Assembly (NCBI RefSeq): GCF_011762095.1
Contig: NZ_JAASQO010000003.1
Location: forward strand, 124,001 to 188,000
Length of the DNA: 64,000 nucleotides
DNA from: Parvibaculum indicum
GTDB taxonomy: Bacteria; Pseudomonadota; Alphaproteobacteria; Parvibaculales; Parvibaculaceae
Direction of reading: 5' to 3'
Shown here: piece by piece, positions 13,066-14,443 of the stretch
How positions within the stretch are numbered: position 1 is the first letter of the stretch
How the letters are laid out: every line of letters starts with the position of its first letter
The notes under the pieces: generated by a model
Told to the model about the DNA's origin: nothing
Databases searched by the model: none
What the model saw: the letters and a program-made list of their open reading frames with translations, nothing else
Position numbers and translations under genes: made by a program

Positions 13066-13397
13066 GGGGCTTCTCCTTACTGGTTTGACGCGGCCCCGGC
13101 ATTCTCGGGGCCGGACCGGTCCGACGCATACGCAACAGAACGCCGCGTATCTCGGATTGTCCGCATGGGATGCGGGCTTGTTTATATGCCCCCACTAATC
13201 GGAGATGCGGGCCGGATTTTCAAGACGGTATAAAAAATTTATTAGGGAACAAAGCGACTTATGAGCAAGCGCATAATCCCTAAAAAATTGTGGGTAATGC
13301 GGCCGCGGCGCGGAGGCGACGGCTAAACCCTTGAGTTCGTGGCACGAATTTTCGGCAGAGCGCGCATCGCCGCTTGTGCCCGCACCGGTGCGATGAA
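13066..13397. other. Non-coding divergent region between sodB and hsp20
   Basis: No protein-like frame is convincing here. The stretch holds the sodB promoter region (minus strand). An AT-rich patch around 13230-13290 contrasts with the GC-rich surroundings. I could not assign a definite promoter for sodB. Confidence 0.5.
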
Positions 13398-13426
13398 CTT
13401 GCAACGGCGCGACGGAATTACCACAT
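13398..13426 (+). promoter_or_regulatory. Candidate RpoH (heat-shock sigma) promoter for hsp20
   Basis: CTTGCA (13398-13403) and CCACAT (13421-13426) with a 17-base spacer resemble the alphaproteobacterial heat-shock promoter (CTTG and a C-rich -10). The position, about 90 bases before the hsp20 start, leaves room for the leader described below. Weak match; transcript start not known. Confidence 0.35.
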
Positions 13427-13457
13427 CTTACGGAACGGTGCCCATTCCGGGGCCGTG

Positions 13458-13506
13458 CCCTGCGGGGGTGCCCGCGGGGTGGAGCAAAGTCGCTTGGAAG
13501 AGGACT
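13458..13506 (+). ncRNA. Candidate ROSE-type RNA thermometer in the hsp20 leader
   Basis: Two hairpins precede the Hsp20 start at 13516. The first is a stable 9-bp stem (13458-13466 with 13471-13479, GGTG loop). In the second, AGTCGCT (13488-13494) pairs with AGGACT (13501-13506) leaving one bulged G. The AGGA ribosome binding site is thus trapped by a UCGCU segment, the hallmark pairing of ROSE elements that melt at heat-shock temperature. ROSE elements are known to control alphaproteobacterial small heat-shock genes. The AGGA-to-ATG distance (11 bases) is slightly long. Confidence 0.55.
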
Positions 13507-13515
13507 TTGAAGGCC

Positions 13516-14025
13516 ATGAGCCGTATGACGCAGTTCAACAGCCCGTTTCTGCTCGGTTTTGAACAGATCGAGCAACTTCTGGATCGTGTGGCGAAATCCT
13601 CCGACGGATATCCGCCCTACAATGTCGAGCAGTTGCCTGCGCCGGCGGAAGATGGCGAAGCGGCCGGCTCGGACATGCTGCGGATCACGCTGGCGGTTGC
13701 CGGCTTCTCCCGTGACGAACTATCCGTCACCGTCGAGGACAACCAGCTCGTCATCCAGGGCCGCCAGCGTGAGGAGAACGACGCGAATTACCTTCATCGC
13801 GGCATCGCCGCCCGCCAGTTCCAGCGCAAATTCGTGCTGGCAGAAGGTGTGGAGGTCGTCGGCGCCAGGCTGGAGCACGGTCTTTTGATTATCGACCTTC
13901 TTCGCCCCGAACCGGCAAAAACAGTCCGCCGGATCGAAATCGACGATGGCGACGGAAGAACGAAGGGGTCACCCATCTCTTCCTCGAAACCCGGACGCAA
14001 ACGGATCGAGGAGGATGCGGTCTGA
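13516..14025 (+). CDS. Small heat-shock protein, Hsp20/IbpA family
   Basis: 169 residues from ATG 13516 (MSRMTQFNSPFLLGFEQIEQ), the usual IbpA-like start; the frame is open further upstream but that part is the leader. The alpha-crystallin domain covers about residues 50-145, with the conserved segment FSRDELSVTVEDNQLVIQG and the closing HGLLIIDLLRPEP. It acts as an ATP-independent holdase for unfolding proteins in the cytoplasm. It is followed by a DUF1150 gene, a common alphaproteobacterial pairing. Expression is probably heat-induced through the leader structure. Confidence 0.93.
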   Translation: MSRMTQFNSPFLLGFEQIEQLLDRVAKSSDGYPPYNVEQLPAPAEDGEAAGSDMLRITLAVAGFSRDELSVTVEDNQLVIQGRQREENDANYLHRGIAARQFQRKFVLAEGVEVVGARLEHGLLIIDLLRPEPAKTVRRIEIDDGDGRTKGSPISSSKPGRKRIEEDAV

Positions 14026-14131: not shown

Positions 14132-14443
14132 ATGCGTAAGGACAATGACCGGTTCGACGATACCGGAAACGAAATACCGAATGCCGGCTGGGGCGCGGAG
14201 GATCTGCGTACGCTGAGCGACGAGGCTTTCGCCAATGCGGGCGTGGGCAACATCGTCTATGTGCGGGAGGTTCTGGCAGGCGACCTGGTGTCGGAGTTCG
14301 GCAACGAGATCGATGTGCCCGCCGATACCGTTCTCTACTCGGTCCATGCCGCCAATGGCGAGCGCATGGCCGTGCTGGACAATCGCGATGCCGCCTTTGC
14401 CGGCGCGCGCCAGTACGACCTGGAACCCGTAAGCGTACACTGA
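14132..14443 (+). CDS. DUF1150 family protein
   Basis: 103 residues, preceded by AAAGGAG. The core (ALGDEAF-like TLSDEAFANAGVGNIVYVRE ... LYSVHAANGERMAVLDNRDAA) matches the small DUF1150 family, which is typically found next to hsp20 in alphaproteobacteria. Biochemical role not established. It is probably co-transcribed with hsp20, 106 bases upstream, and a terminator follows. Confidence 0.85.
   Translation: MRKDNDRFDDTGNEIPNAGWGAEDLRTLSDEAFANAGVGNIVYVREVLAGDLVSEFGNEIDVPADTVLYSVHAANGERMAVLDNRDAAFAGARQYDLEPVSVH

Follow-up and report, generated by a model that had tools for sequence, protein, structure and literature searches.

Layout of the hsp20 locus

The window, by which we mean the whole 64,000-nucleotide stretch of Parvibaculum indicum DNA analyzed here, carries a gene for a small heat-shock protein (sHSP), hsp20, followed on the same strand by a DUF1150 gene. 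The leader of hsp20 extends from about 13435 to 13515 and comprises 3 hairpins, with a putative promoter lying upstream; the coordinates of all features are collected in Table 1. The CTTG of the promoter is separated from the -10 box by 17 nt, and the 5' end of the first hairpin (hairpin I) lies 8 nt past the -10 box. Judging from the gene order and the gap of 106 bases between them, hsp20 and the DUF1150 gene are probably co-transcribed. The closest named relative of the locus comes from a Parvibaculum metagenome-assembled genome (L033), the Hsp20 of which is 92% identical to that of the window. Our literature search found no report dealing with both heat shock and a thermometer in Parvibaculum.

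Table 1. Features of the hsp20 leader and the adjoining genes in the window
Feature	Coordinates	Strand	Details
Putative heat-shock-sigma (RpoH)-type promoter	13398..13426	+	CTTGCAAC at 13398-13405, TACCACAT at 13419-13426
Hairpin I	13435..13456	+	ACGGUGCC...GGGGCCGU, bulged G, YGCC/GGR core
Hairpin II	13457..13480	+	Extra stable hairpin, not conserved
ROSE-like hairpin (SD hairpin) CAAAGUCGCUUGGAAGAGGACUUUG	13485..13509	+	RNAfold, homologues
Anti-Shine-Dalgarno motif U(U/C)GCU	13490..13494	+	UCGCU here, bulged G at 13492
Shine-Dalgarno (SD) sequence AGGA	13501..13504	+	11 nt 5' of the hsp20 ATG (13516)
hsp20, small heat-shock protein	13516..14025	+	169 aa; PF00011, 68.4 bits
DUF1150 gene	14132..14443	+	Belongs to the family of LarA, a Lon activator of Caulobacter; PF06620, 92.7 bits

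The genome holds a second hsp20 (L001), for which Rfam gave no match and the SD of which, by reading, has no UYGCU opposite it. An ibpA-type paralogue, listed for most of the genus relatives, was not found in the P. indicum genome at E values up to 0.001.

Pairing and conservation of the SD hairpin

Four pairs (U13490-A13504, C13491-G13503, C13493-G13502, and U13494-A13501) connect the AGGA with the anti-SD motif and leave G13492 bulged, and this core is flanked by CAAAG/CUUUG on the outer side and by 1 extra pair on the inner side. The pairing, bulged G included, had been proposed in the initial annotation; it is confirmed in the sequence, and the hairpin is present in both the minimum free energy (MFE) and the centroid structures produced by RNAfold. 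At 37 °C, the hairpin has a predicted energy of -8.8 kcal/mol, which places it within the modeled range of 100 such hairpins and somewhat above their median stability (median -7.25 kcal/mol, 22% of them being more stable; the 2 sets compared were not deduplicated against each other), and removal of G13492 brings the prediction to -12.6 kcal/mol. The folding energy of the leader as a whole is unremarkable and, with a z-score of just -1.57 and 17 of 200 shuffles folding equally well or better, was rejected as proof of an element. The predicted unpaired probabilities of the 4 AGGA bases range from 0.00 to 0.05 at 37 °C and from 0.00 to 0.11 at 50 °C, a gradual change in which RNAfold predicts no sharp opening of the AGGA hairpin; hence, the melting curve was likewise rejected as proof of a thermometer and, lacking a sharp transition, counts against one. 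Hairpins I and II are predicted to be folded up to 60 °C.

To assess conservation, we used 111 loci of hsp20 relatives (L002-L112), from which 92 distinct leaders were obtained; L002 is the locus of the window itself, and near-identical leaders remain in the set. The UYGCY/RGGR core is present in 80 of the 92 and absent, as defined, in the other 12. The core accompanied by at least 3 further pairs was found in 64/92 leaders versus 67/4600 dinucleotide shuffles, which ignore common descent, and the 6 further pairs of the window hairpin are reached by 4/4600. Because it is conserved among the leaders of relatives, the pairing is not attributable to chance. A fairer measure than this shuffle comparison is a class-wide sample of 60 hand-picked orthologues, mostly every second in the ranking, drawn from the matches in 108 of 191 class genomes. 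Following removal of one short leader (L144), 59 were usable; they overlap partially with the 92 leaders, and 54 remain distinct. The core occurs in 45 of the 59 and is absent, as defined, in 14; the core with at least 3 further pairs occurs in 29, and a DUF1150 gene lies downstream in 45. The corresponding numbers for 20 hand-picked ibpA-type paralogues, 14 of them from the genus and family, are 17, 15, and 0. Three paralogues (L194-L196), scored as “none,” are counted as misses; in L195 and L196, the sequence examined ends with TTGCTC, and the start assigned to these genes probably lies too far upstream.

In our tabulation of the outer stem, the core pairs are formed by construction, and the outer pairs alone constitute evidence. 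Outer pairs 1 to 4 are formed in 62, 56, 53, and 51 of the 80 leaders, respectively, compared with permuted means of 36.8, 32.8, 41.7, and 39.5 (maxima 48, 44, 50, and 50). Outer pair 5 (44/80; permuted mean 40.0, maximum 51) stays within the permuted range, and outer pair 6 (19/80) falls below its permuted mean of 27.5. Covariation of the outer stem across the class set includes C-G/G-C and A-U/C-G exchanges at the first and second outer pairs, and compensatory change among relatives, one of the hallmarks of ROSE elements, is accordingly found at the class level via outer pairs 1 to 4; within the genus (14 leaders), it was found in none of 15 pairs. RNAalifold, applied to 14 genus leaders with the window and its nearest relative excluded, draws both hairpin I and the SD hairpin, each with its bulged G.

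Several leaders without the core contain near variants of it (for example, L070, L071, and L082), and 4 leaders in which the core as defined is absent (L024, L070, L071, and L082) have kept the bulged-G hairpin I. In 2 genus relatives, L036 and L037 (at approximately 1480-1505), the codon aligned to the start codon of the window is ACA rather than ATG, and the next in-frame ATG is closely preceded by a second AGGA (AAGG in L037), so that these leaders may possess another SD besides the one masked by the ROSE-like hairpin.

Upstream hairpins, promoter, and covariance models

A YGCC/GGR bulged-G hairpin I with at least 3 outer pairs was found in 82/92 leaders versus 138/2760 shuffles; this count and that of the SD hairpin use different patterns, and the class-wide pattern for hairpin I is laxer and without shuffles of its own. 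When the search was limited to single 5' bulges, the best hairpin carried a G before CY in 76/92, 37/54, and 19/20 leaders of the 3 sets, with the respective shuffles yielding 224/1840, 106/1080, and 34/400. In the hairpin I table (166 leaders), where the search pattern itself imposes pairs 0 and 1 and the outer pairs are the evidence, outer pairs 2 to 5 are formed in 133, 124, 117, and 84 of 151, respectively (permuted means 97.4, 67.1, 69.4, and 54.5). The bulged-G structure of hairpin I is not new, since the Rfam models ROSE and ROSE_3 draw a bulged G at this place. RNAfold also draws a bulged-G hairpin before CC/GG in the ibpA leader of Escherichia coli K-12 (L116).

The motif CTTG-N14..19-CCCCAHWT, allowing no more than 1 mismatch in the 8 positions of the -10 box, was detected in 63/92 leaders versus 7/1840 simple shuffles. 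The -10 box of the window is weaker (6/8), and the window is not among the 63. The heat-shock sigma consensus reported for E. coli is CTTGAA-N13-18-CNCCATAT (PMC3669281, partial text), and boxes resembling CTTG-N13..18-CNCCATAT would be expected just upstream of an RpoH-dependent leader. A promoter with a -10 box of at least 6/8 was identified in 77 leaders. A search for stems downstream of it, run without a shuffle control and permitting at most one bulge, on either the 5' or the 3' side, found a stem in 74 leaders, 62 of which carry a 5' bulged G. In 63 of these 74 leaders, the stem begins 6 to 12 nt past the -10 box, which would put hairpin I near the expected transcript start.

Hairpin II, by comparison, is confined to the window and L033 in a genus alignment of 17 rows. 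Five genus leaders (L006, L016, L021, L022, and L028) have hairpin I farther upstream, 73 to 92 nt 5' of the start, a distance that provides space for extra hairpins of their own. The strong upstream hairpin pointed out in the initial annotation exists (13457-13480) but is not the conserved one, which is hairpin I (13435-13456); similarly, the extent first given for the element, 13458-13516, holds the SD hairpin but leaves out conserved hairpin I.

The Rfam ROSE model RF00435 aligns to the window end to end (model positions 1-94) and in the right register, with its basal stem missing. The ROSE covariance score, proposed initially as a check on the element, came out below threshold at 23.5 bits versus a cut-off of 45 (E 0.085 on 181 bases). 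RF00435 was unlisted at E values up to 5 when the window and L033 were scanned and, under strict filters, was not found in the P. indicum genome; RF02523 (ROSE_3, at E values up to 10) and RF01832 (ROSE_2) were unlisted for the window. Membership defined by the gathering cut-offs of these 3 models thus does not extend to the window. The hallmarks of ROSE elements that can be assessed from sequence are nevertheless in place, namely, a U(U/C)GCU opposite the SD with one bulged G, stable upstream hairpins in a total of 2 to 4, and a position directly before the Hsp20 gene. The ROSE arrangement originally claimed for the leader consequently holds as “ROSE-like” by structure, not as Rfam membership by score.

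Under strict filters, RF00435 reached an E value of 0.001 in 3 and the cut-off in none of 142 class genomes, and gave no match in 14 control genomes; the 3 class places, by reading, directly precede sHSP genes. ROSE-type models at E values up to 1 matched 2 of 14 loci, one being the positive control, E. coli ibpA (100.4 bits with ROSE_2). A Caulobacter orthologue (L105) scored 29.1 bits with ROSE_3 (cut-off 43). There was no Rfam match for a genus relative carrying the same hairpin. Because no class genome reached the cut-off and this relative went unmatched, the Rfam models seem too restrictive to settle the matter and, given also the 2 matches among 14 loci, were rejected as sole arbiter. 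We also built a model from the 14 genus leaders, neither the window nor L033 being among them. It ranked the window locus first within the 64 kb (22.2 bits, E 0.0029) and first in the whole genome, but there with an E value of 0.185 and 6 other weak places, and it fits hairpin II of the window instead of hairpin I. The second-best place in the genome (L198), located under 2 genes on the opposite strand that we take, by eye, to be AbiE-like, was regarded as a chance match.

Interpretation and comparison with known systems

The element is a further instance of the known ROSE kind, with corrected boundaries. Given the predicted structure, its conservation and covariation, and its constant position ahead of the gene, we consider it highly probable that the leader functions as a ROSE-like RNA thermometer, its melting being extrapolated from the family. 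Transcription of hsp20 would probably start close to hairpin I, from the putative heat-shock-sigma promoter. At growth temperature, the 3' hairpin would pair the AGGA with UCGCU; the bulged G would weaken this helix, so that, as expected from the family, it would open on warming, allowing ribosomes to bind and Hsp20 to be made. The upstream hairpin or hairpins would remain intact and may assist correct folding of the 3' hairpin. By analogy with the studied leaders (PMC3669281, partial text), heating should melt the SD hairpin while leaving the upstream hairpins in place.

Heat control could instead be entirely transcriptional, exerted through the heat-shock-sigma promoter, with a static SD-masking hairpin tuning basal translation only. 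The conservation of this type of promoter (63/92) and the absence of sharp melting from the RNAfold predictions fit such an arrangement, as does the Caulobacter shsp2-larA operon, which is described as directly sigma32-regulated in PMC10665427, where the word “thermometer” is absent from the main text. A static mask, however, does not need the bulged G, whereas the UYGCY/RGGR core persists class-wide and the outer stem covaries; moreover, the closest studied leaders melt when heated (PMC3669281), and we regard exclusively transcriptional control as unlikely. Still less probable, in our view, is that the leader serves chiefly as a site bound by Hsp20 in translational self-repression, as described for E. 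coli IbpA, with any thermometer function being secondary. The Hsp20 of the window is identical to E. coli IbpA at 60 of 121 aligned residues, and its Y32 and R100 align with Y34 and R93 of IbpA; self-repression in E. coli requires R93, and both residues are reported to be well conserved in alphaproteobacterial IbpAs (PMC10474464, partial text). In addition, the conservation of hairpin I equals or exceeds that of the SD hairpin (82 versus 64 of 92, by criteria that differ). The conserved SD hairpin with its bulge, on the other hand, fits temperature control, and self-repression is compatible with a thermometer mode.

The 228 aa open frame that begins with the GTG at 13339 raises the further question of whether the hairpins lie inside the coding sequence of a real gene, which we find scarcely credible: an in-frame stop occurs at most 90 nt upstream of the start in 53/92 relatives, the upstream translations are dissimilar in the 9 relatives compared, with the exception of L033, and it is the promoter and the hairpins that are conserved instead.

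A ROSE-like thermometer at this position could bear on the neighboring gene as well. In Caulobacter, the DUF1150 protein LarA activates Lon, and larA is predicted to share an operon with the sHSP2 gene, controlled by sigma32 (PMC10665427, partial text). The role of hairpin I is “not fully understood” according to PMC3669281, where breaking hairpin I in Pseudomonas derepressed the reporter and constructs with the second hairpin alone retained the temperature response. One speculative and, on balance, doubtful proposal is that hairpin I, with its own bulged-G core that is kept also without the UYGCY/RGGR core (for example, in L024), forms a second regulatory site in alphaproteobacterial sHSP leaders, for instance in sHSP autorepression, and that the thermometer heat-gates Hsp20 and, by coupling, the Lon activator LarA. 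If the thermometer does set LarA levels, heat would gate Lon activation at translation in addition to transcription. The analysis reveals a conserved ROSE-like branch before hsp20-DUF1150 genes that stays below the Rfam cut-offs in the sequences tried, and it draws attention to the 5'-terminal hairpin I as a conserved partner element in these leaders.

Among known systems, the leader shares with the short ROSE-like elements of Pseudomonas ibpA a heat-shock-sigma promoter (putative in the window), a stable hairpin I, and, ahead of an sHSP gene, a further hairpin in which U(U/C)GCU masks the SD (PMC3669281, partial text); in this comparison, made by description only, the window differs by its extra hairpin II and by DUF1150 as the next gene. 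The hairpin order and the bulged G in both hairpin I and the SD hairpin are those of RF00435, whereas the window has a CAAAG/CUUUG stem in place of the CCAUG-type and lacks the basal stem of the model. The ROSE_3 consensus (RF02523) likewise contains a bulged-G hairpin I and UCGCU/AGGA, and ROSE_2 (RF01832, E. coli ibpA) has a UCUCGCU/AGGAG hairpin before an sHSP gene, the first position of its model falling within the 3' arm of the bulged-G hairpin drawn for the E. coli leader. In Pseudomonas aeruginosa, removing G39 from the thermosensing hairpin resulted in repression, with 1.4-fold induction left, and in a hairpin stable at 42 °C (PMC3669281, partial text). G39 is presumably the bulged G of the motif and, if so, the -12.6 kcal/mol predicted for the window hairpin without its bulged G would fit the repression caused by that deletion.
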